This document shows, in pieces, positions 1 through 55,277 of a stretch of DNA of 64,000 bases (positions within the stretch are counted from its first letter, which is position 1; every line of letters begins with the position of its first letter). This DNA is from Prostheceraeus crozeri. Its lineage: Eukaryota; Platyhelminthes; Polycladida; Euryleptidae. The stretch covers positions 124,001 through 188,000 of the forward strand of contig CAJQUW010011266.1 of the NCBI GenBank assembly GCA_907163375.1, given 5' to 3'. The position numbers were made by a program, and so were the translations under genes. The notes under the pieces were generated by a model. The model ran no database searches. It was not told the DNA's origin and was given only the letters and a program-made list of their open reading frames with translations.

Positions 1-620
1 TAGAGTTGTTAATTTGAACATGAATGGCAAAGTGTGAGGATTGAAACGTTGAGGATTGCTGTAATTGTGTTGAGGATGAGTACGCAGATGTTCTAATTGT
101 ATTGAGGATGAATACATCATGTTCTAATTGTGTTGAGGATGAGTACGTAATGTTCTAATTGTGTTGAGGATGAGTACGCAGATGTTCTAATTGTATTGAG
201 GATGAATACATAATGTTCTAATTGTGTTGAGGATGAGTACGCAGATGTTCTAATTGTATTGAGGATGAATACATAATGTTGTAATTGTGTTGAGGATGAG
301 TACGCAGATGTTCTAATTGTATTGAGGATGAATACATCATGTTCTAATTGTGTTGAGGATGAGTACGTAATGTTCTAATTGTGTTGAGGATGAGTACGCA
401 GATGTTCTAATGCTGAACTTGTTATTTTTTTTGAATGATTATGTTGAAGGCTATCTATCTATCTATATATATATATCTATATATCTATACATATATATAT
501 ATATATATTATTATTATCATTATGGTTTGTGTTCGATTGAGACAATTGTGACCATTGTGACCATTGTGACCATTGTGACCATTGAATCCTTCATTTCTAT
601 TTTGTGTTCTTTTGTCAAAT
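1..620. repeat. Left terminal inverted repeat of element A (partial)
   Basis: Matches the reverse complement of 20602-21209 base for base over long stretches, apart from copy-number changes: GTGACCATT repeats (four copies at 548-583 versus two at the right end) and small differences in the TATC/TA microsatellite at 460-512. The match stops after ATTTGTCAAAAG-type sequence at 620. The outer ~255 bp are missing because the window starts inside the repeat. Confidence 0.93.
69..410. repeat. 31-bp minisatellite inside the left TIR
   Basis: About eleven units of a 30-32 bp sequence with core TTGAGGATGAGTACG alternate between two subtypes (GAGTACGCAGAT and GAATACATMAT). The same array is mirrored in the right TIR. 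Alternating subtypes suggest growth by duplication of dimers. Confidence 0.9.
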
Positions 621-2481: not shown

Positions 2482-2511
2482 TATATAAGATAGGCGTGCG
2501 AGCTTTCAGTA
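2482..2511 (+). promoter_or_regulatory. TATA box and initiator of the 2556 gene
   Basis: TATATAAG-type box at 2482-2489 and a TCAGTA initiator at 2506-2511, about 25 bp downstream. Upstream, around 2445-2460, are CACGTCAT and TTACTCAT, half-sites like those bound by bZIP factors. The ATG at 2556 follows with A at -3. Confidence 0.6.
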
Positions 2512-3421: not shown

Positions 3422-4087
3422 ATGATGATGATGATATTGAATGACTCTGAAATGACAGATTTTCGACTATTCACTGACCGTACAATGTGTGTGGCCGGAC
3501 CAAGTCAGTCTGGTAAAACAACTTTTGTAACTCAGCTACTGCAATACAGAGATGAGATGTTTAATAAGAAAATAAAACAGGTTAAATGGTACTACGGTAT
3601 TTTTCAACCAGATCTGCATTCTGCACTCCGACAGCAGGGATACCAAGTAAAACAGGGGCTACCACCAACTGAGGATATCCGAGCAGGTGATTTGATCGTG
3701 TTGGATGATCTACTTCGAGAAAGCAAATCTTCAAAAGATGTAACCGAAATGTTTATTCAAACAGCACACCATAGGCAAGCTTTTATCATCTACATCACTC
3801 AAAATATCTTTGATGGAGGAAAAGAGCAGAGAACTAGAAGCCTTAATACACACTATTTGGTGGTTTTCAAGAATCCAAGAGATAGTAGTCAGATACATCA
3901 TTTGAGTCGACAAATATTACCTCAGCAGCCTAAAACTATTTCGAAAATATATGATGAAGTGACGAAGAAGCCACATGGCTACCTCTTCATTGATTTAACG
4001 CAAGAATGCCCAGAGCGATTTCGATTTCGAACTAATATTATACCAAACTCTGGAGATGCAATGATAGTATTCACTGTCAACAGTTAA
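3422..4087 (+). CDS. A32/FtsK-HerA-type genome-packaging ATPase
   Basis: 221 aa. Walker A GPSQSGKTT near residue 27-35, Walker B DLIVLDDLL near residue 95-103, and the sensor-like FIIYITQN about 40 residues later. These match the packaging ATPases of Polintons, virophages and large DNA viruses, which drive genome translocation into the capsid. The element B copy (57733-58398) has the same three motifs and the shared stretch ESKSSKDVTEMF. The start is uncertain within a run of four Met codons; all give nearly the same protein. Followed closely by the conserved 4152 gene, as in element B. Confidence 0.9.
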   Translation: MMMMILNDSEMTDFRLFTDRTMCVAGPSQSGKTTFVTQLLQYRDEMFNKKIKQVKWYYGIFQPDLHSALRQQGYQVKQGLPPTEDIRAGDLIVLDDLLRESKSSKDVTEMFIQTAHHRQAFIIYITQNIFDGGKEQRTRSLNTHYLVVFKNPRDSSQIHHLSRQILPQQPKTISKIYDEVTKKPHGYLFIDLTQECPERFRFRTNIIPNSGDAMIVFTVNS

Positions 4088-4151: not shown

Positions 4152-4802
4152 ATGAGTTTTTCAAAAATGGTTGTCATTCCTCAAGAGGAATATCTACAGC
4201 TATCAATGACAAGAAATATTCAGGAAGCTAAAAATGTGGATCAGCCGGTTACAGATCAACTTAAGCAATTATCTCAACAGGATAGGGAAATTCAAAAGAT
4301 TGAGGATCCTTATCGACGAATGCAGTTACAGGCTGAGAATTTAGAGGAAAGACGACATATTAGGGAAAAGCTGCGCAAATTCATAACTCTTTCAACTCCT
4401 CGAGCATATCGCATGCGAGGTGAAATGTTGTTTGATTTTATTGATCCCCACGTAAAGTTCAATGAGCGAGGAGAAATAATAGAAGAAAACGGTGATGTAA
4501 TTAGGAACAGTCACATTGATGATCTTCTACAATATGCTGTGAGAGATGTAAGGCGAAAGCTGGGTGCTCCACAAGGATGGGAATACTTTCAAAAAGTGCT
4601 ATCTAATCACAATGTCCCCCATAATATAATCGGAGGACCAACTATAAATGAACTGAATAAAGGGTTGGCAACCGATTCTTCAAAAGGAAAAGTAGTTACC
4701 ACAGTCAAGCGAGAACCCATTGTTTCTCCTGCTACGTCTCCAACTCCGAAGAGAAGAGGGAGACGTTCAACACGAACACCGAAAAGTTATAGCAAATATT
4801 AG
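4152..4802 (+). CDS. Conserved Polinton protein between ATPase and integrase
   Basis: 216 aa from ATG 4152, chosen by alignment to the element B copy (57044-57736), which starts MNSYSRMIVIPQDEY where this one reads MSFSKMVVIPQEEY. Shared features: an alpha-helical, Gln/Glu-rich N-terminal half with heptad-like spacing, a central block (FDFIDPHVKFNERGEII), a GW-YF motif (PQGWEYFQKVL) and a Ser/Thr-Pro and Arg-rich tail. The family is widespread in Polintons; I do not know its function. The place between ATPase and integrase and the basic tail suggest a virion or DNA-associated role (inference). Confidence 0.7.
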   Translation: MSFSKMVVIPQEEYLQLSMTRNIQEAKNVDQPVTDQLKQLSQQDREIQKIEDPYRRMQLQAENLEERRHIREKLRKFITLSTPRAYRMRGEMLFDFIDPHVKFNERGEIIEENGDVIRNSHIDDLLQYAVRDVRRKLGAPQGWEYFQKVLSNHNVPHNIIGGPTINELNKGLATDSSKGKVVTTVKREPIVSPATSPTPKRRGRRSTRTPKSYSKY

Positions 4803-4832: not shown

Positions 4833-6057
4833 ATGTCTATGCAGAAAATTTGCTGCTGTTTGAAGTCTGCGCTCGATAGTAAAGGAGAAGAGGGTATAGA
4901 AGTTGATATCAATTGCGTTAGCAGTTGCTGTGCAAGTAATACTCGAGCGAGTCGCCAGAATAAGGAGGATGAGCGCAGCGGAAAAACTGAGACAAATCTA
5001 CTACGATATCAATCATCCCGCAAGCTTCAGTCGTCCGAGCGTTTTAGCCCGTGCAGCAGGTGTACGATTAGAGACAGTGAAGAAATGGTTGAAGAGTCAA
5101 CCAACCTACACGCTACACAAGGATGCGAGGAAGCGGTTTCCAACTAGGAGATATGTTGTCAATAATATTGACAGTCAATGGCAAGCAGATTTGGCTGATA
5201 TGCAGCAGATATCTCAATACAATGACGGTTACAAGTACATCCTAACCGTAATAGATATTTTATCACGATATGCTTGGGTTCGCGCCTTGAAATCCAAGAG
5301 AGAAGCAGAAGTTGAGGCGGCTTTTCAAAGTATTCTAAATGAAGGGAGGATCCCACAAAGAATACAAACAGATCAAGGAAAGGAATTCGAAAATTCCCAC
5401 GTTCGTGGTCTACTTGAGCGATATGACATTGAACTGTTCAGTGTTAAAAGTGCTTACAAAGCTGCGATGGTTGAGAGGTTCAATCGTACACTCAAGACAA
5501 AGATATGGCGGTATTTCAGTGCTACAAATACACATGTCTGGATAGATGATTTACAGAAGTTCGTGAGAAATTACAATGAGAGCTATCATCGGATTATAAA
5601 GATGCGTCCAATTGACGTCACTCGGGATAATGCTATGGATTTGTGGCTTCGTCTGTATGGCAAGGCACCAAAAGCAACTACCGATAAGAAGAAAATCAAC
5701 GTTGGTGATAGAGTTCGCATCTCTAAAGTGAAGTCTACATTCGAGAAGGGCTATCTACCGAATTGGACCGAAGAAGAATTCTTTGTTGATGAAGTAAATA
5801 AAAAATTTAAACCAACAATGTATAAGTTAATAGACTATCATGGTAATCCAATTGAAGGGAAATTCTACTCATATGAATTACAAGTGGTTGATCGGAGTGA
5901 AGAAGTGTATATGATAGATAGAATAGTTAAGAGGAAAGGACATGGTAATCATAGAAAATATCTCGTCAAATGGAAGGGATATCCTGACTCGTTCAACAGT
6001 TGGATAGCCCATCAAGACTTGAGAAATGTGGAAGTAGGAGACATTAGAAGCTTTTAA
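4833..6057 (+). CDS. Retroviral-type (rve) integrase with chromodomain, 5' end frameshifted
   Basis: The main frame is open from 4903, with a usable ATG at 4969. It shows a helix-turn-helix-like N-terminus, the rve catalytic core with D (QWQADLADM), D (IQTDQGKEF) and E (VERFNRT), and a C-terminal chromodomain (YLVKWKGYPDSFNSW). It inserts the element with 6-bp target duplications; the chromodomain probably reads host chromatin. In the intact element B gene a Cys-rich N-terminal region precedes the core. Here a similar Cys-rich stretch (MSMQKICCCL) is in another frame starting at ATG 4833, so a frameshift lies between about 4960 and 4985. Either the 5' end is broken or translation now begins at 4969. 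Confidence 0.88.
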
Positions 6058-6071
6058 GCTAATATTGGTGA

Positions 6072-7685
6072 ATGACTACTGATCCCACATTATATCCAAT
6101 AATGTCGTCTGCTGAGTTCAACATCATTCTCCCGAGCAACAGCAATCCCAAGATATTTCCAGAGAACAAACCATCGGAGTATTCGGTTGAGTTTGCCAAG
6201 CCTCTTTATCTGAGTGGCCCTCACGAAGTCGCATTAACTGAAGTCACATATTACAATGATATTAGTTTGTTAACGAATAATTATTTTGAAACACACACGG
6301 AAGTACGTGAAAAGGATGATTGTTTTCGCCTATTTCAGAATGGTCTACATGGAACATGGGATTTTCATCATCTTACTTTACATCCTTTCTCACCATCGCT
6401 ACCGTCTGTCAAGAACATGATCAAAATTGAAAAGGCATATGCAACGTCTTCCTTCAATTCTACAGTTCCCACACTCAGCTTGCAAGATACGGAGAATGAA
6501 ATTGGTAAAATGTTCCGACGAATAAACGATCTCTTCACTCTCACTTTAAATAGATTCTTCAAGCCAGTTGTAAAAGGCTCAACTAAACTATTGAAAGAAG
6601 GGAGGAAGCATGTTCTGCTAATATTAGGTAGAGATTTGGCACACACTCTAGGGTTTCCCAGAACTACATTTTCATCTCTACATTGGTATAATGGACTTGG
6701 ATGGAAAGCTGAGAGAACAGTTAGTGATTTTCAATGTAGAATTGCACCGTTGTATGCACTACAGAAAAGGAGTGTCCGCGTCAAGGAAAAATTTGAAGTT
6801 ATTAAAAATATTGAAGACGTTGCAAGAAAGTTTCAAGGATCAGTGCCAGAAAGTTTAATGACTTGTGAATATAAGAAAGAGAAAGTAACTCTTTTTACTG
6901 CTGAAATGGAGGTAGAATTTCTTGTTTTCACTAAAAAGACACCTTTGGAAAAGTCTAATTCCGCTGTTATTGAATTCGGATCTGAAATTCAGAGACTATT
7001 CAAGCATCCTGATAGTCCACCGTGTTTGACAGAATTAAATGATACATATAAGATTCAGTTGAATTCCAATAAACTAAAGACAGCAACAAACGACGCATGG
7101 CACATCAATGTATATTCCGATAAAATACTGGCTGACGAATTGAGTACCTCAACTGAGCTAGTAAGGAGGGTCAATTTAAACGTTGAAGATCTAAACACAC
7201 CATCGGAAATTTGTACAAAACTGAATGAAAATGGTGCACACTACCTCAACGCAGATGAGTACTTCTTTTCATATGATCCCTTAAAGAAGCGAATGGTTTT
7301 AAAAGTAGGGAGAAATTATCTCATTAAGCTCGACAAGATGTTGGCAACAATTCTAGGGTTCTAAAAATTCACAATAAATGAAGGTACAACCATTGGTAAT
7401 TCAGCACCTTCATTAGAGAGAGACATCAGTAACTTATATATTTACTGCAATATTGTTGAGTATACTAGAGTTGGTGACATCGAGGCTCCATTGCTACGCA
7501 CATTTCCCCTATCATCCGTCCGGAAGCAGTTAATCAATCGTGAATTCATCAACAAAATGTATTTACCGATCAATCGAAGTGTTATCAATAGAATCGACAT
7601 TTCAATTCATGATGATCGGGGTGAAATTGTTCCATTCTATGGTGGTGTTACTGTGCTGACACTACATATTAAGAATCGAGACTAA
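6072..7685 (+). CDS. Penton-type minor capsid protein, interrupted by one in-frame stop
   Basis: The frame runs from ATG 6072 (or 6102, which starts MSSAEF) to a TAA at 7362-7364, then stays open in the same frame to 7685. The downstream part has the typical family C-terminus (LYIYCNIVEY, then ISIHDDRGEIVPF), matching the intact element B protein at 52756-54222. The N-terminal marker FNIILPSNS...ENKPSEY is present in both. Known role in the family: single-jelly-roll vertex (penton) protein of the virion. The lone nonsense codon removes about 107 residues, so the copy is likely dead unless read through. Confidence 0.8.
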
Positions 7686-8215: not shown

Positions 8216-9502
8216 ATGCAATCGACTATCAATTCAGCTTTGTGCTTTTTTGATACATCACCCCAGCAAACTGACATAATTTCGTCGAGAATTGTTGACT
8301 ATTTTCCCTCAACAAATATTGTGGGTAATGACATACCTATTCAGTTTGATGTTACTGCTAATGCTGACGACTACATCGACTGTCAGTCTATTGACTTGGA
8401 ATTGTGTGTACAAATTAAAAAAACTGATGGTACTAACATTGATTCTAAGGACAAAGTGGGGTTGATTAATCTCCCAATTGCCAGTCTCTTCTCAGATGTC
8501 ACTTTATCACTAAATAATAAGCAGATTGAAGGAGGAGATTCATCATATCCATATGGAGCTTACTTATATACATTGACTCAGTTTCAAAACCAGGCCAAAC
8601 AAACGCACTTACAAGCTGCTGGTTGGTTTACAGATCAGTCTGGTAAGTTCGATGATTTCGCTAATAATGGTTTGAAAAAGCGTGTGGAATTAACTGCTGA
8701 TTCAGCTGAACTACATTTAAAAGGTCCTGTCTATCTTGATTTTTTCCGTCAATCGAGATACCTCCTATCTCAAGTACAAATGCGATTGACATTTGTTCGT
8801 GCTAAATCAAAATTTGCTTTGATGTCATTTGGACCTGCTGCATCCTATGATGTACACATAACGGAAGCTGTCCTCAATGTAGGGCGAGTAAAAATGAATC
8901 CCACAGTCATCAATCAACATGCTGTAGGACTGAAGAACCACAATGCTATATATCCAGTCAATCATAGTGTACTAACCACTTTTACGATTCTGGCGACTAC
9001 CTCATCTTTTGATTATCCCAACCTCTTTCCAATTGCCCTACCGAAGGCGGTGTACATCGCGTTTGTAGAAAATGAATCATTTTGTGGTAACTTTCAGAAG
9101 AATCCGTTTCATTTTCAACATTTTGGTATCACGAAACTCGGTCTATTCGCAGATGGCAATTCAGTTGCTTGTAAGGCCTATCAACCGAATTTTAAGGAAA
9201 ACAATTTTGTTCGCGAATATCGCTCTACCTTCATGGCACTAGACATGTTCAACACTGACGATTCAAATGGTATTACGATGGATATGTATAAGAATGGCTA
9301 CTTCTATATATTATACAACCTCAAAGCAGATTGTGATATAACTGGGGAAAACGTGGATGTTACAAAAGCTGGTAACCTTCGATTGGAACTCACATTTGCG
9401 GATCCTTTGAAAGTTCCTGTAACCGGTTTACTTTACGCAATCTATGACAGCAGCATTGAAATTACTAGATTGAGAGACGTCTTGGCCAACTATCAGAGAT
9501 GA
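8216..9502 (+). CDS. Major capsid protein (double jelly-roll)
   Basis: 428 aa, the usual size for Polinton major capsid proteins. It opens with the family pattern FFDTSPQQTDIISSRIVDY, followed by FDVTANADDYIDCQS and DKVGLINLPIASLFSDV. The element B copy aligns throughout but stops about 90 residues earlier. The protein would form the pseudo-hexagonal capsomers of the virion. Its stop codon overlaps the start of the protease gene as ATGA (9499-9502), so the two are probably translated from one message. Confidence 0.88.
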   Translation: MQSTINSALCFFDTSPQQTDIISSRIVDYFPSTNIVGNDIPIQFDVTANADDYIDCQSIDLELCVQIKKTDGTNIDSKDKVGLINLPIASLFSDVTLSLNNKQIEGGDSSYPYGAYLYTLTQFQNQAKQTHLQAAGWFTDQSGKFDDFANNGLKKRVELTADSAELHLKGPVYLDFFRQSRYLLSQVQMRLTFVRAKSKFALMSFGPAASYDVHITEAVLNVGRVKMNPTVINQHAVGLKNHNAIYPVNHSVLTTFTILATTSSFDYPNLFPIALPKAVYIAFVENESFCGNFQKNPFHFQHFGITKLGLFADGNSVACKAYQPNFKENNFVREYRSTFMALDMFNTDDSNGITMDMYKNGYFYILYNLKADCDITGENVDVTKAGNLRLELTFADPLKVPVTGLLYAIYDSSIEITRLRDVLANYQR

Positions 9503-9960
9503 GCAACCTCAGTAATGTGGAAATCTTAAACTTAATGAAGAAAGCTCATCCTTATTCCAAGAAATTGTTTCTCAATGTATTCCCAAGAGATGAACTACCT
9601 ACATCAATTCAGTCATATCCCTGTTCTCTGATTATAAATACAGACACGGTTAATCTTCGTGGTAAACATTGGGTTGCCGTGTACATAAATCGCAATAGAG
9701 TAGCTGAATATTTTGACTCTCTCAATCAGCCACCATTACATGATATATCAATATGGATGAATAGATTCTCATGGACTAGAAAGAAAGTGACATCGTTCCC
9801 ACTCCAAAGTAATAGATCCCTTATGTGTGGGGGCTACGTACTGTATTTTGTTAATGAACGACCTTTGAAAAGTGACTATAAAAGTGTTATTCGATTATTC
9901 TCTAGAAATTGTGCTAAAAACGATGTAATTCTCAACAATTATATGAACTCAGTCTTGTAA
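9499..9960 (+). CDS. Adenain-type (C5) cysteine protease
   Basis: 153 aa. Catalytic His in GKHWVAVYI, acidic residue in AEYFDSL, Gln and Cys in PLQSNRSLMCGGYV: the His-Asp-Gln-Cys order of adenovirus-type and Ulp1-like peptidases. Known role: maturation cleavage of capsid and core proteins at Gly-containing sites; candidates are the Gly-rich sites in the 2029 and 7729 proteins. Last gene of the + strand arm. No homologue is found in element B. Confidence 0.85.
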   Translation: MSNLSNVEILNLMKKAHPYSKKLFLNVFPRDELPTSIQSYPCSLIINTDTVNLRGKHWVAVYINRNRVAEYFDSLNQPPLHDISIWMNRFSWTRKKVTSFPLQSNRSLMCGGYVLYFVNERPLKSDYKSVIRLFSRNCAKNDVILNNYMNSVL

Positions 9961-10071: not shown

Positions 10072-10635
10072 TCAACTTTTTACAAAATAATTTTTCAAAT
10101 CACTTATTATTTGGGATACAACTTTCAAATCTTTAATGCCAGTTATCACAACTTTCCCATTGTGGAACACGTGAACGTGATAAGGATGCCAATTTGTCAT
10201 TTGCGCAGCAGGAAATAACTCCACCTCATAAGTAAGATTGGACGTAGAGGAAACTTTGCGAAAGTCATAGCGATAATTCAATTCGCATAACACTGTCATG
10301 GTTTTTACTTTCCAATTAGGTAATTTATCCCGTAATAGTATCTCCAACACGGAGTGTAAGTAATTGAGATCACAATCATCGAAGCACCCAACACACTGCA
10401 CTGTTCCATTAGGAAAGAAAAGGACAGTCATGGATTTCTCCTTCTTCAAGATTCTCCATGTCAACATTGTGGGTCGCCCCAGATACAAACTCGTCGTCGG
10501 CTTTCGCCTCTTCTTCACTATTAGCCATTGATTTCTGTTGGGTATGTCTCGCTCGATTTGATGTAGATTAAGTTTTGAGTTTGCTTTTGTAACCACCATG
10601 CGATTCACCACTTTCATCTGACTGATGTCGTCCAT
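10072..10635 (-). CDS. TATA-binding-protein-like (TBP) protein
   Basis: 187 aa, close to the ~180-residue TBP core. Two imperfect repeats are visible: the first ends in SMTVLFFPNGTVQCVG, the second has YEVELFPAAQMTNWHPYHV then VFHNGKVVITGIKD and a final helix (ISDLKNYF). The second repeat follows the order of the TBP saddle: a YEPELFP-like strand, a strand ending F-x-x-G-K-V-V-x-T-G, then a long helix. The first repeat shows the same F-x-x-G-x-V-x-x-x-G pattern. Known family role: binding the TATA box and nucleating RNA polymerase II initiation. Convergent to the protease gene; its start overlaps the PC4-like ORF by 68 bases, and it has its own CRE plus TATA upstream. No counterpart in element B. 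Internal ATGs at 10614 and 10599 are alternatives. Confidence 0.75.
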   Translation of the reverse strand: MDDISQMKVVNRMVVTKANSKLNLHQIERDIPNRNQWLIVKKRRKPTTSLYLGRPTMLTWRILKKEKSMTVLFFPNGTVQCVGCFDDCDLNYLHSVLEILLRDKLPNWKVKTMTVLCELNYRYDFRKVSSTSNLTYEVELFPAAQMTNWHPYHVHVFHNGKVVITGIKDLKVVSQIISDLKNYFVKS

Positions 10636-10993
10636 CTCTGACGAATGAAATTATACTTGGTAGAATCTCCTTTATAAAGGAACCCCATGTGACGTCACTA
10701 AAACGAAAAAATCGATGATCAACGTCTTTCCTCTTGGATGAACATACGTAAAGTTTGACAGTTGAATCATATTTTATCCATACCTTTTCATCCAGAGGAA
10801 TCTTCATCCGAGTATCATGTCGCTCAATCAGATTAGCAAAATCTTTAAGTGAGGGCAATGCGTCACTACTAATAGAAACACCACGATGATTTCTACTATT
10901 TGTTACAGAATGTCGAAAAACTATTTTGCTTGAATCTGTTAGGTGAATTTTTTGTCTGTCACTTAACTTCCATGTTCTGATATAATGAGGCAT
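10568..10993 (-). CDS. Tandem PC4-like (transcription coactivator/ssDNA-binding) protein
   Basis: 141 aa. Two units with the PC4 order of four beta strands and a helix: IHLTDSSKIVFRHSVTN ... RGVSISSDALPSLKDFANLIE, then WIKYDSTVKLYVC ... FFRFSDVTWGSFIKEILPSI. The second follows the PC4 pattern of a G/F-x-S strand leading to a W-containing helix. PC4 proteins bind single-stranded DNA and support RNA polymerase II transcription; related proteins occur in phages and viruses. The identification is from pattern and could be wrong. The 3' end overlaps the TBP-like gene, suggesting joint use. Confidence 0.5.
   Translation of the reverse strand: MPHYIRTWKLSDRQKIHLTDSSKIVFRHSVTNSRNHRGVSISSDALPSLKDFANLIERHDTRMKIPLDEKVWIKYDSTVKLYVCSSKRKDVDHRFFRFSDVTWGSFIKEILPSIISFVRDGRHQSDESGESHGGYKSKLKT
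10671..10697 (-). promoter_or_regulatory. CRE plus TATA promoter of the TBP-like gene
   Basis: On the - strand a perfect TGACGTCA (10690-10697) is followed by TTTATAAA (10671-10678) and a TCAG initiator-like motif just before ATG 10635. The promoter lies inside the 3' part of the PC4-like ORF. Confidence 0.55.
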
Positions 10994-11199: not shown

Positions 11200-14100
11200 C
11201 TATTCTACATCACCTGCTGTGGGAAGACATTTTCGTCTTTTTGACGGAGGAGGAAGTCCAAGGCTATAGTGTCCATATGGTAAAGATAAGTTCTTATTTA
11301 TCCAGCAGCGCTTATCTTCCCAAAGTGAGAGCCCTCGCTTTCTAAACGTTTTTGTTTCAACTATGTGGTTTTTTGAATTTATGACGGTTATTTGCTCATT
11401 GGTATCTTTCTCAGTATAGTAAACATTTCTATAGTCACTATGTTCTATGCGTCTAACCACTGCTCTCTGTATACCCTTTGCTCGCCTAATGCTATGATGT
11501 GTTGAATCTAGAAATTTCATTGAATACATTTTTGGTTTCAAAAGAACCATCTCCTCAAGCAACTTTCCCGCGCACTCATCCTTAAAACAACCGAGTCTAG
11601 CCTTGTTTGTAATTGAATATAAACGGTGATTCACATCATAATTTGAGGAATCAAATTTTTCACCGAAATACAGGAATATATCCTCTAAACGAACAGATGG
11701 TGAGGTGTATAGACAAAGGAAAAAGCTATCGGTATCACCTCCACAAAGACGTGCTCTATTTATCAGTGGACATCTAATTAAATCTTTATAATACAACTGG
11801 TACATTTCTAATTTACTATAGTCAAGAACTGCTTGACCAACATAAATTAGTTTATTTAGAACTATTGAAGGTTTATACAGTTCCATACCAACTAAATCTT
11901 CATCGAATATCTTATGCTGAACATATAGGGGATGATTGGCCAATTTAGATAGTTGCAATGTTGTATTTACTAATTTGAAGTTCCTCCGACGTCTCACATT
12001 CTCCATAGTCTTACCAAACAGGGAGTTGTTTTTTAATTTATAAAACGCTTTTTCAAAATCAGATTTTGATTGAGCTCTTTTCTGCGAATTCATATCAATA
12101 TATTGTCTCAGCCACGATTTTTGTGTGAACTGGATTCCAGCATGGACCTTCTTTATCTTCATTCCCATAGAGAGGTAGAATTTTAGAATCGAGTAATGAA
12201 CAACATAATTTTCTCGATCGAACTGATGCAGCAACAGTTTCTTTGTGCTTGTGAAACACATATTTGGTCTTAAAGTTTCATAGAAATTTTTCATATATGT
12301 AGAAAACATTTTTTCCTCTACCAATTGCATTTCTGGAGCTAATGGAAAATCAGCCGTGTCATCGTGAATGTCTGAAGGATATTCTAAATCCAAATCAAAG
12401 ACATAACCTATATCAGCCTCATTATCAATATTTTGAATGTTTTCCTCATTTGAGAAGTACACTACTTGACCTTCATCAAGCCATTTGAAGTTTGAATGTG
12501 GGAGATTCTCACTTAGCGACGAACCGTAAAGGTTGTTGACGTCTAAATATGCTAAATGACGGCTCTCTTGTGGATTGTTTTGCAACTCTGAAATACGAGC
12601 ACGCGCTCTATGAATATTTGTAAACGTCATACCTCCTCGGATCCCCCTCTCAAAAAGATTATACATGCTCTCATCTTGAATGTAGTGTGGAGGATCATTC
12701 GAAGCAAAATTCAATGCTGATGTGAAGCTAAGGTGAGGTAGGCTAACAAAATGAACTGGATCTACTTGATCTTCATCCTGACTTAATTTCCTAAATGTCT
12801 CAAAAATGTCTGCCAACAGCAAGACATCTAACTTGAGGTATTCAAGCATGTAGTCTCCAAATGTTTTGCAATTAAACGCATTCCATGCTTTTTTCGCGTG
12901 CTCATAATCTATATCGTTGCAATGCTCAAGAGTAAGATCGTTGTAAAATTCCCTTTGAGGAGGAAGACAGAGCTCCGTTAGAGTTGCCAAACTACTAAAA
13001 TATGAGTACGGAAACACTCCTTTTTCGTAAAGAATATCATCAGTTAATTTTGGAAATTCATTTCGCAGCGCTTCTACATGTTTGTAGACTTTCAGACTTT
13101 TGGCTAATTCAGCAAGCGATGCGCTCAGAAATTGATGAGTCCAAAAATTTCAATTTAAAATATACAGGCTTTCCATTATATTCGCTTACTGGAATTGTTG
13201 ATGATAGAGTAATATATTTCTCAGCAGTAGCTGCAATAACATCTAACTTCCAAGATTTCTTTTTACCAATTGCTTTATAACAAACAATATGGCTGTCATA
13301 GTTTTTGAAATTGTGAAAGAAAACAGGAAGCTCTCGTCGATTCAATCTTAATCGCAAATTGCACTTTGAACATATTGCTTGCCTGTACTTTCCGGTTATG
13401 TGATCGTGATCACGAACTTTTGATATATCTTCACTAAATTTTATCTTACATTTATTGCAATTTTCTGCATTTTTATGAGCAATATCTTCCACTGCTGTCA
13501 ATCGCATCGGCATTCTGGTCATGACATTTTGATTATCATATAAATTTTGGACAACATCTTCTAAATGATTTAGGAACTCAGCGATGCAATTTTCCCCTTC
13601 AAACAGATAATAGATGTTATTGTAGGTTGACTGAAGTGCCTCATGCCAGACGTGGTACACACCTACAGCCGCAGGTTTATGAATTTTGTTTTCTATTAAA
13701 CACTCGATATCGGCGTATATGACTAAAGGTGGACTGAGTTGGTGCTCAGTACTACTTATCTGAACTTCTAAATGTTTGGGCATTTTTTCTATTTGCGCCT
13801 TACCACGACTACAGAATTGAAAATGTCGTTCTAAAACGCTTCTCTTTGAAAAGGATTGAGTGCATCTTTCACAAAAAATCTTGCGACTTGTGTAAAATTT
13901 GCTATATAACCTAGATAATTTTCGTATGCCGCAATAATGGGCAAAACCGTTATGTAGCACTAGCAAAATATTAACGGTTCTTTTGCCAATGAAATTGCTG
14001 TTGTATCTTACTCCCTTGAGACCATTTTCATACAAGTGGATATTTACTTTTATATCATTGTTTTTCTCAAACTTAGGAATGTCCTTTATTGACACTGGTG

Positions 14101-15058
14101 TGGAAATGCCATCCATAACCAATTCAGATGTCCACTTTCTATATGAGTTTACCTCGTTTATCTTTGAATGAGTAACTTCATCGTAGTGAATGATTGACAA
14201 GATAGAATACATGAAGCAGTCATTTGAATTTGAATTTACATTTATTACAGCCTTAGAACTTCTTAACTTTTTAGGTAAAGTATTCATTTTACCACCAGAT
14301 AGTAGAGGAGTTGAAATTAAATTGAATTCTACATTTACTACTTTATCAACAACCCAATTGCTTCCTCTATTTGCAAAAGTTGAAACATGATTTGATAAAC
14401 TATTTAAATTATCCTGAAACCATGTGTCAAAGTCATATATATAATTTGATGATAATGAGGTGAAGTGCGCGAGAAAAGTTTCTTCCTCTTGAGGATTAGA
14501 ACGGACATAGCGAATTTGAGCAATTAATCGACCACGTAGTTGAAGACTAGTTCGCAAGTCATTAACTAAATTTTCTAGTAAGGTTCGCATGTTGAATAAA
14601 AAAGATGTTACATCTACTGTTTGAATGGTTGGTGTAATGTCATACACGCGAGCACGTCCGCTGAAGGCGCTTTCACTAAGGGTGAGTGTTCTATAATTAT
14701 TGTGACTACTCATTTCAATGTTCATATCATGTATATTATTGTGTTGACGGAATCTACTTGTGCTATTATAATTCTTACCACAGTGAGAGCAGCAATGCCT
14801 AAAAGCTTCATCATTATTTAAAGCGCTATCTGGAATGTCCCTAACATGACTACTACAAGTTGATAAATTAGTATTATTTGTTCCTATTCCTTCTTGACTG
14901 CAACATACGAGATTGTGTCTTTTTAAATTATCTTTCCTACTGGTTTCATATGGACAATTACTACATTTATGCTTTATTCCTAGCTTGCAAAATTTTTCAT
15001 GACGCGTTAAATTGCTAACAATTGTAAACTTCTTTCCACACTTAGAGCAGACAACCAT
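11200..15058 (-). CDS. Protein-primed DNA polymerase B, element A (one frameshift)
   Basis: Two adjoining frames: 15058 to about 13130, then about 13130 to 11200. In order: three C2H2 zinc fingers (CSKCGKKF, CSNCPYET, CSHCGKNY), a conserved N-terminal domain, a segment with a Cys and a His (CFMYSILSIIH ... FAHYCGIRKL) also seen in element B, ExoI (VIYADIECL), a zinc-binding HNH-like stretch, ExoII (HNFKNYDSH), ExoIII (YLKLDVLLL), PolA (LDVNNLYGSS), PolB (KNNSLFGKTME), PolC (GGDTDSFF) and KPKMYS. It would replicate the element from its ends by protein priming. The frame changes just after FLDSS near 13130, where element B continues without interruption, so this copy cannot make a full enzyme without correction. 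Confidence 0.9.
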
Positions 15059-15090: not shown

Positions 15091-15134
15091 CTTATATACT
15101 GTCTACATATTATATTATGTAACCAGTGACGTCG
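15091..15134 (-). promoter_or_regulatory. CRE-like site and TATA box of PolB (element A)
   Basis: On the - strand TATATAAG at 15091-15098 lies 33 bases before ATG 15058, with a TGACGTCG (one base from a perfect CRE, read on the + strand) at 15127-15134. Confidence 0.55.
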
Positions 15135-20601: not shown

Positions 20602-21464
20602 ATTTGACAAAAGAACACAAAATAGAAATGAAGGATTCAATGGTCACAATGGTCACAATTGTCTCAATCGAACACAAACCATAATGATAATAATAATATA
20701 TATATATATATGTATAGATATATAGATATATATATATATATATATAGATAGATAGATAGCCTTCAACATAATCATTCAAAAAAAATAACAAGTTCAGCAT
20801 TAGAACATCTGCGTACTCATCCTCAACACAATTAGAACATTACGTACTCATCCTCAACACAATTAGAACATGATGTATTCATCCTCAATACAATTAGAAC
20901 ATCTGCGTACTCATCCTCAACACAATTACAACATTATGTATTCATCCTCAATACAATTAGAACATCTGCGTACTCATCCTCAACACAATTAGAACATTAT
21001 GTATTCATCCTCAATACAATTAGAACATCTGCGTACTCATCCTCAACACAATTAGAACATTACGTACTCATCCTCAACACAATTAGAACATGATGTATTC
21101 ATCCTCAATACAATTAGAACATCTGCGTACTCATCCTCAACACAATTACAGCAATCCTCAACGTTTCAATCCTCACACTTTGCCATTCATGTTCAAATTA
21201 ACAACTCTAGAACATTTAAATGTACCTAACCGAACTCACATCATCAACACATTACACTATTCTCTTCACAAATAACACAAAACAGTACACTTGTGTTCGC
21301 AATCAACACTTCAAATAACAGACGACTACAACCACAAGATCAACTTTAAAAACAAATCGGTACATTAGGTTCCAATTCAAAATGTACTCATCCTGATCGG
21401 TACATTTAGGTTCCAATTCAAAATGTACTAATCCCGGGACAGTATGAGCCCTTTTAATACTACT
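20602..21464. repeat. Right terminal inverted repeat of element A
   Basis: About 863 bp. It contains, from inside to outside, the shortened GTGACCATT array, a TA/TATC microsatellite (about 20695-20760), the 31-bp minisatellite (about 20800-21150), unique sequence and the tip ...TTTTAATACTACT at 21464. Compare the left tip of element B, AGTAGTAATAAAACGG: the tip motif is shared although the rest of the repeats differ. Confidence 0.9.
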
Positions 21465-54245: not shown

Positions 54246-55277
54246 TTAGAAACGAGTCCTTATTTCATCCATAAAATCAACATAACTGCGCATAAATTGA
54301 TCCGCAGCAAAATCTGGTTTGTAGGGTGGACCAGGATGACTCACACCATTTACACGTAAAGCAATTTCACTTAACTGATTGTGTTTAAAATTGACAGGAT
54401 TCTTCTTTATATTACCATTAAATGCATCATTTTCAACCATTGCCACCATGAGGAGCTTCGGTGCTTCCGATGGAAAGAGGCCATCTTTCATGAAACTCTT
54501 TTGATCTTTCGGAATTGTAAAGGTGAGAAGCTTTGTATGCTGAACGGGGTAAATGGCATTTTGGCGGTTAAGACCTTCAGCATGCCCTCTAATGACACTT
54601 GGATTCGGTACTACTCGACGAATGTAAAGTACAATATCTTCCACATGAATTCTAAAATTGTCAACTTTAGCAAATGCATTCAGCGCAAATTCAGGCTTAT
54701 TCAATGTCAGCTTGAGTCGCATGCTGGTATTACAGAGTAAATACTTTGACTGTCTATAGAAGTCTAAATTCAGCGGACCATATAGCTGACATACTTTACT
54801 ATCTTTAATCATAGCAGATCGCTTTACAAAGCCATTGTTTGTTTCAGCATCAAACTTTCCTGCTTCATCTCTGTACCATTCCATGGCTTCCATATGACTT
54901 TTTTGTGCTGCTGGATGAAACTGTGATACATGATTTAAATATGATTTATAAGGATAATCGCTTTGACCACCTTCCACCTGCTGCTCTCCAATCGTTAGAG
55001 AAACATCGCGAAGCAATGTAGTCAATGGTAAATTGTTCAGTCCAACTTTATGTGTATCGTCAATAGCATTTCCATCTGCTTGCTGAATTCTAAACCTCAA
55101 ATCAACCATCGCATAACTCAAATCGATGTAGTCATCACTACCACCAGGAATAACAAATTCAATGGAGCCAGCATTCTCAGCTGTTCGAGGATGATAATCT
55201 ACAATACTTGAACTAAGAATATCTGTCTGTATGGCCTGTTGATCAAACAAACAAAACCCGGAAGTTTTACACTCCAT
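54246..55277 (-). CDS. Major capsid protein, C-terminally truncated
   Basis: 343 aa against 428 in element A. Starts with the same pattern (FCLFDQQAIQTDILSSSIVDY), then GGSDDYIDLS and DTHKVGLNNLPLTTLL. It ends at VDFMDEIRTRF, where the element A protein has ~90 more residues forming the last strands of the second jelly roll. The stop lies inside the penton start region, so a deletion removed the C-terminus and probably everything between the two genes, including any protease. Likely non-functional. Confidence 0.82.
   Translation of the reverse strand: MECKTSGFCLFDQQAIQTDILSSSIVDYHPRTAENAGSIEFVIPGGSDDYIDLSYAMVDLRFRIQQADGNAIDDTHKVGLNNLPLTTLLRDVSLTIGEQQVEGGQSDYPYKSYLNHVSQFHPAAQKSHMEAMEWYRDEAGKFDAETNNGFVKRSAMIKDSKVCQLYGPLNLDFYRQSKYLLCNTSMRLKLTLNKPEFALNAFAKVDNFRIHVEDIVLYIRRVVPNPSVIRGHAEGLNRQNAIYPVQHTKLLTFTIPKDQKSFMKDGLFPSEAPKLLMVAMVENDAFNGNIKKNPVNFKHNQLSEIALRVNGVSHPGPPYKPDFAADQFMRSYVDFMDEIRTRF

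Follow-up and report, generated by a model that had tools for sequence, protein, structure and literature searches.

Does a Polinton encode its own TATA-binding protein (TBP), and if so, which promoters would such a protein serve? The question is raised by the 64,000-nucleotide stretch of DNA analysed here (the window), in which a gene with two TBP-like repeats and a YEVELFP segment had been proposed to lie inside a Polinton, convergent to its protease gene. Regarding its identity, positions 10072–10635 of the minus strand form an exact ORF of 187 aa, from ATG to stop, and the YEVELFP segment is found in its product; PF00352 (TBP) was the sole Pfam-A family matched at E ≤ 1, with 49.5 bits against a cut-off of 22.9 and an E of 3.8e-13. 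As for the two repeats, each half of the protein matched PF00352 when cut apart from the other: the C half (residues 104–187) alone scored 33.6 bits (E 3.5e-8), and the N half (residues 1–103) alone 22.1 bits (E 1.4e-4), 0.8 bits below the 22.9-bit cut-off; the NCBIfam TBP model spanned both repeats in one colinear stretch, residues 5–181, with an E of 4.2e-9. The best PDB matches of the protein, used as a single-sequence query, were TBPs as well (E 4e-5). The profile comparisons with Pfam, NCBIfam and PDB thus all gave TBP, and it is nearly certain from them that the product is a true TBP homologue; that it recognises promoters, and would control which of them Pol II uses, is what we infer. 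An AlphaFold model built from a shallow alignment (7 close copies) was poor, with a mean pLDDT of 42, and fold searches with it returned metallo-beta-lactamases and other unrelated folds, with no TBP among the matches listed; matches to so poor a model are uninformative.

The element that hosts the gene, element A, is a complete Polinton with terminal inverted repeats (TIRs), a 6-bp duplication, and genes for PolB, integrase, ATPase, protease and capsid protein (Table 1). Its TIRs are about 0.86 kb long and 99% identical; the left TIR starts outside the window, 255 bp before its first position, and the right TIR ends at 21464; the ends of the element are AGTAGT/ACTACT, flanked on both sides by the duplication GCTATG. 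Inside the TIRs, offset self-matches reveal tandemly arrayed repeats, recurring about every 31 bp, at about 62–411 of the window and mirrored in the right TIR. Just inside the left TIR lies a RING-finger ORF (643–1176), with TATATAT directly before its ATG. The protease ORF (9499–9960, plus strand) faces the TBP gene, so that the convergent arrangement is borne out; PolB, encoded by the same strand as TBP, is situated upstream of it. In the ORFs of the PolB region, Pfam recognised zinc-finger and endonuclease VII parts only. PolB is split into two ORFs by a gap of about 260 nt (12850–13108), matched at the same place in a subfamily with 73% identity; an intron, a frameshift or decay are possible. 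No TFIIB family was detected in the 16 scanned of the 22 other element-A ORFs (≥90 aa), a search that a divergent TFIIB could escape, and no RNA polymerase family was found among the element-A ORFs scanned.

Table 1. Features of element A and of the TBP operon, in window positions unless a locus is named
Feature	Position	Strand	Basis or remark
Viral TBP gene, two TBP lobes (residues about 7–89 and 109–177)	10072..10635	-	PF00352, NCBIfam, residue alignment
Partner ORF of 141 aa just ahead of TBP, 68-nt overlap in another frame	10568..10993	-	Homologous ORF precedes and overlaps TBP in four other families
Partner/TBP overlap	window 10568-10635; L010:8877-9076; L030:1228-1538; L043:1222-1562; L042:1486-1814		
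Ulp1/adenovirus-type protease, convergent neighbour of TBP	9499..9960	+	Peptidase_C48 19.5 bits, just below 20.7-bit cut-off
Capsid-type protein (MCP by position, conservation and relatives; no Pfam match)	8216..9502	+	
PolB region, two ORFs (13109-15058 and 11200-12849)	11200..15058	-	Named by position, conservation and relatives
Integrase with chromodomain	4969..6057	+	Pfam
Packaging-type ATPase	3422..4087	+	Best AAA_14 26.6 bits, just below 27-bit cut-off; start taken at 3452 by homology
Left TIR, inner part (starts 255 bp left of window)	1..620		Self-comparison
Right TIR, then 6-bp duplication GCTATG	20602..21464		Self-comparison
Candidate element TTAGGCAA	11035..11042	-	49 nt upstream of partner/TBP operon
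Candidate element TTAAGCAA	1974..1981	+	55 nt before orf1984, its start set at 2029 by homology
Candidate element CTAAGCAA	3396..3403	+	56 nt before packaging ATPase, its start set at 3452 by homology
Candidate element TTAGGCAA	4109..4116	+	43 nt before orf4122, its start set at 4152 by homology
Candidate element TTAGGCAA	4799..4806	+	34 nt upstream of orf4833, ahead of integrase; conserved in 73% subfamily
Candidate element TTAAGCTA	6054..6061	+	48 nt before orf6072, its start set at 6102 by homology
Canonical TATA element	2482..2487	+	Upstream of orf2556; conserved in 73% subfamily
Canonical TATA element	15093..15098	-	Upstream of PolB; TATA-type element also in 73% subfamily

All counts, families and promoter data come from one genome (2.05 Gb), in which a protein search with the window TBP gave at least 150 copies at 72–100% identity. 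Among the 150 matches listed, 82 had 88–100% identity (family F1, which includes the window gene) and 68 had 72–73% (F2); 6 matched only part of the protein, and an in-frame stop was absent from the matched stretch in 137 and present in 13. Searching the genome with the PF00352 model gave at least 146 further, more divergent non-host matches (150 listed, of which 4 host), with an in-frame stop in the matched part of 8 of the 146. All 26 of these that were inspected in sequence match the window TBP; 25 have a capsid, protease or PolB gene within about 1.5 kb and the remaining one adjoins the partner ORF only, while the other 120 were assigned to the viral type solely on their score and the length of their frame. 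The gene sought in other Polintons was found in at least five element families of the same genome, F1–F5, with identity down to 26% (F2 element, L010/L011; F3, L030; F4, L043/L044; F5, L042). A TBP 37–40% identical to those of F3–F5, at L035:1489-2040 on the minus strand, probably represents a sixth family, judging from this one decayed copy with a stop in TBP.

The other families match TBP as well: beside the window protein's 49.5 bits, PF00352 gave 52.7 bits for F2, 66.7 for F4, 77.4 for F5 and 83.1 for F3. F3–F5 fit better than the window protein, and the NCBIfam TBP model matched F3 over its full length with an E of 8e-23. A profile made from one member each of F1–F5 matched 35 PDB sequences at E ≤ 0.001, the best with an E of 4e-21, colinear with solved TBPs; 34 of them are named TBP, TFIID or fusions, and one is named 'ECU04_1440 protein'. 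As for selection, dN/dS for TBP was 0.11 between F1 and the 73%-identical F2 (NG86, with a dS of 1.57 that is near saturation), and the F2 element had matches to all 16 element-A genes compared, 41–86% identical. Because of this ratio, the F2 element with all 16 genes and the 137 stop-free copies among the 150 listed, the TBP ORF is not a chance one, and by these measures it is under purifying selection. The neighbourhood of the gene varies, since in F4 (L043, L048, L053) the opposite-strand gene downstream of TBP is PolB and not protease, in a rearranged module order. Outside this genome, a viral contig collection contained no relatives of the Polinton TBP or integrase in four scans with Polinton TBP queries and one integrase scan.

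The statement that the other element of the window, element B, lacks TBP is true of the window copy, but the contrast with element A fails at the family level, element B being kin to the TBP-bearing F5. Element B is 97% identical over 7 kb to L056, of an F5 locus, and 99% identical over 457 bp of the capsid gene to L042, the TBP side of the same locus. This second similarity stops at window position 54266, inside the capsid gene, and the element B copy is therefore deleted or mosaic there; by these matches, its L042-matching side is part of the TBP-bearing lineage, with the protease–TBP part lost or exchanged.

TBP is preceded by a partner ORF that overlaps it in the same relative frame in all five families, by 68 (F1), 200 (F2), 311 (F3), 341 (F4) and 329 nt (F5), in one copy each. 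When TBP codons were synonymously reshuffled, the openness of the overlap had a P of 0.0005 (0/2000) in F3, F4 and F5, of 0.001 in F2 and of 0.056 in F1, and the synonymous rate between F1 and F2 was 0.40 in TBP codons 1–23 vs 2.0 in the remainder. The overlap is read as genuine overlapping coding because the frame is open beyond the reshuffling expectation and the synonymous rate is low at the start of TBP. The shared DNA encodes the N-lobe of TBP in one frame and the partner's C-terminal tail in the other; in F3–F5 an FSF..A stretch is retained in this tail, which terminates in SIE or close to it. Family F5 carries the partner gene twice in tandem (L042:785-1141 and 1164-1814), the two copies being 41% identical. 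Neither Pfam nor PDB profiles gave a confident family for the partner, the best PDB match being a weak one to uS10 (E 0.015); an AlphaFold model from a 6-row alignment had a pLDDT of 38. A PC4-like identity, considered by strand order, was dropped, given that Pfam and PDB profiles support no family.

The residues that contact DNA and TFIIB were compared, in yeast numbering, between five Polinton representatives (one per family) and 15 archaeal, two eukaryotic and 12 IMG/VR TBPs (13 were found and one was too short). The kinking Phe residues are taken here to pair as F99/F116 and F190/F207, and human E284/E286 and F305 are assumed to be equivalent to the yeast-numbered E186/E188 and F207. Whether the TATA-contacting Phe residues are kept, a question raised with the original prediction, has a divided answer: F116, F190 and F207 are kept in all five families, but F99 is Pro in all five, so that the F190/F207 pair is intact and the F99/F116 pair broken. 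Like cellular TBPs, archaeal or eukaryotic, the Polinton proteins have two colinear lobes and retain F116, F190, F207, E186 and E188, together with N69 and T215 (5/5 each), the L5.1 Phe thus being present in both lobes of every family. They differ from cellular TBPs in F99P, V122Q, T124 replaced by V/M/L and V71 by M/L (5/5), in the additional N159T and V161T of F1/F2, in a common WxPxH signature, and in an ORF that starts almost at the core; the C-lobe DNA contacts are normal in F3–F5. Neither Pro at 99 nor Gln at 122 occurred in any of the 29 non-Polinton rows. F99P counts against canonical TATA binding, and membership of the TBP family rests on the Pfam score, the two lobes and the L5.1 Phe; the replacement of F99 and V122 alike in all five families suggests an altered, not canonical, TATA recognition.

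With respect to TFIIB, passages of PMC7221094 describe human E284/E286 (C.L3.2/C.L3.4) as TFIIB contacts, and F116 (N.L5.1) and human F305 (C.L5.1) as near-universal TBP DNA contacts; they add that viral TBPs often vary at the TFIIB-contact glutamates and that almost all come with a viral TFIIB. Because the glutamates are kept in the five representatives and no TFIIB family was seen in the 16 of 22 ORFs scanned, we infer that the viral TBP would use host TFIIB. In L015, an F2 copy, the second of the TFIIB-contact glutamates is replaced by Lys.

In phylogenetic terms, each of two trees grouped the five Polinton TBP families as a single clade (support 100/100) whose stem is long, and treekit warns of long branches; the IMG/VR TBPs fell apart from this clade. 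The same genome has host TBP exons (L026 and L028, at C9306) and a TRF2/TBPL1-like gene (L027, at C3829), to which the 4 host matches with the PF00352 model belong. TRF2 is known only from animals, and its presence points to an animal host; L027 has Trp at N.L5.1 and no LFP motif, unlike the viral TBPs, which have Phe at N.L5.1 in five of five families. A captured host TRF2 was rejected because of this Phe, the LFP motif and the separate 100/100 clade.

As for the promoters, comparison of F1 vs F2 upstream sequences gave conserved TATATAA-type boxes before orf2556, orf1285 and PolB, whereas other genes were preceded by a conserved string of another kind; the sites beside the boxes are what we take to be AP-1- and CRE-like. 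The candidate element was written as YTADGCAA in its strict form and YTADGCW as its core, and its occurrences in element A are given in Table 1. An open k-mer scan was not significant, with TTAAGCAA in 7 of 14 F1 windows against shuffled maxima of 5–7. The enrichments that follow came with a pattern, additional families and corrected starts that were selected as the analysis went on. Among 18 start windows taken from F3, F4 and F5 (L042), some of which are homologous to F1/F2 windows, 4 had the strict form, against an average of 0.23 after shuffling, and 8 had the core, against 1.22; none of 1000 shuffles reached either value. The test is not blind, because the final patterns were fixed once looser variants had already been tried on these windows. 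The antisense strand of these 18 windows had 2 strict and 3 core matches, and TATAWA was enriched in them too (7 vs 2.17, P 0.005); in the F1 and F2 windows, antisense YTADGCAA-type matches numbered 0.

For an overview, 45 starts were tabulated, some of them moved to a homologue-supported methionine, with the core counted within 75 nt and TATAWA within 95 nt; late-type denotes capsid, packaging, protease, integrase and neighbouring unassigned ORFs. The core preceded 17 of 28 late-type starts, all 6 TBP-operon starts and none of 11 early-type ones, a pattern settled after seeing the data; TATAWA preceded 3 of the 28, none of the 6 and 8 of the 11, and this early/late split is descriptive because the classes were set by the author after seeing the upstream sequences. 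The distance from core to start had a limited range, with a mean of 45 nt and an SD of 13 (23 starts). The core is absent from 11 of the 28 late-type starts, including MCP in the three families tabulated; TATAWA is absent from both F5 early-type starts, that of RING is 7–9 nt from the ATG in F1, and the early-type row F3 59538h, which does not begin at an ATG, was kept among the 11. Four windows examined later all lacked the core (0/4). Two of them, ahead of the protease and of the TBP-overlapping ORF of the decayed copy L035, should have had YTADGCW; the other two, early-type F4 rows that do not begin at an ATG, should have lacked it, and they had no TATAWA either. YTADGCAA resembles what we presume to be octamer and C/EBP-like sites, and therefore a host factor could bind it.

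The reading towards which we lean is that a viral late TBP binds YTADGCAA promoters with host TFIIB and Pol II, and that early genes use TATA and host TBP. Early genes (PolB, orf1285, orf2556) would rely on host TBP acting at canonical TATA boxes; the viral TBP, in which the N-lobe is changed, would then bind YTADGCAA promoters, with the C-lobe on the 5' YTAD half and the altered N-lobe on the 3' GCAA half, and would recruit host TFIIB and host RNA polymerase II, by which the virion genes and the TBP's own operon would be switched on. In cellular TBP the C-lobe faces the 5' half of the element; if it does so here, the unusual GCAA of the 3' half fits the N-lobe changes, which are uniform. Since the TBP operon itself carries a YTADGCAA-type element, a first trigger would be needed. 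An alternative that we hold to be rather unlikely, albeit deserving of weight, is that the viral TBP acts on ordinary TATA boxes or host promoters, as a competitor or decoy for host TBP, and that YTADGCAA is read by the partner or by a host bZIP/POU protein: the glutamates are normal, as are the C-lobe DNA contacts of F3–F5, TATA boxes precede some genes of the element, the F3–F5 start windows are enriched in TATAWA, and the partner ORF is co-conserved with no family match to say what it does. The like replacement of F99 and V122 in the five families argues against it, suggesting altered TATA recognition, and the lack of antisense matches in F1/F2 windows together with the limited distance range is more like a core-promoter element.

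That the TBP fold has a non-promoter use, such as DNA bending in replication, packaging or integration-site choice, would agree with the position of the gene beside PolB and/or protease, and passages of PMC7221094 place TBP lobes also in bacterial nucleic-acid-binding proteins outside transcription; the TFIIB-contact glutamates kept in all five families and the coexistence of a shared core-promoter-like element make such a use improbable. Least probable by far is a captured host TBP or TRF2 copy with no viral function: both host genes are in the same genome, yet the viral clade is separate in two trees, at 100/100 and on a long stem (with the long-branch warning), L027 differs from the viral TBPs at N.L5.1 and in the LFP motif, and dN/dS is 0.11. 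It should be noted for the late-TBP reading that, according to PMC7221094, the TFIIB-contact glutamates would also suit Brf-type partners. In its fullest form this reading would describe a minimal private core-promoter system in an animal Polinton lineage, namely a 180-aa TBP with the N-lobe rebuilt for YTADGCAA instead of TATA, plus an overprinted partner, feeding host TFIIB/Pol II to late genes and to its own operon as a positive-feedback switch; we advance it tentatively, with rather less than even confidence.

Other viral systems have comparable parts. A TBP gene in a eukaryotic dsDNA virus is also known from giant viruses and mirusviruses, being present in 59% of mirusvirus genomes according to a passage of PMC10132985; the TBP passages in that source and in PMC10675990 concern mirusviruses or elements of that kind. 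These viruses are far larger than a Polinton and, in passages of PMC7221094, usually have a viral TFIIB, the two forming an orthogonal viral TBP/TFIIB pair, in contrast to element A with no TFIIB homologue in the 16 of 22 other ORFs scanned. Poxvirus VITF-3, a TBP/TFIIB-like heterodimer (PMC12917281, in part), is also a viral TBP-like promoter factor; it serves the poxviral RNA polymerase, an enzyme of which none was seen among the element-A ORFs scanned. A further likeness is with UL87/ORF24 of beta/gammaherpesviruses, described in parts of PMC8360532 and PMC13345323 as a TBP mimic that acts at non-TATA late TATT promoters with host TFIIB and Pol II: the proposed Polinton system would likewise join a non-TATA late element, here a candidate one, to host Pol II. 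The herpesvirus mimic acts in a six-protein viral set, whereas the Polinton TBP is compact, recognisable in sequence and accompanied by one overlapping partner ORF. Vertebrate Mavericks/Polintons, as described in part of PMC8097293, are alike in their two facing modules, AGT-repeat ends and TIRs, and differ in that no TBP is among the core genes named there. TBP and TATA are absent from the texts of PMC8097293, PMC10328495 and PMC11071308, and among the titles and abstract openings listed by a literature search none was recognised as reporting a Polinton or adintovirus that carries TBP.

In conclusion, the Polinton TBP provides a naturally occurring TBP in which one half-site may be altered, and the system of which it is part would be a compact parallel to the herpesvirus late-transcription complex. 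We know of no account of how Polintons time early vs late genes. Parts of the literature propose Polintons as ancestors of many eukaryotic DNA viruses, and their early/late timing becomes directly testable in an element of 22 kb that encodes a TBP and has a candidate late-promoter code.
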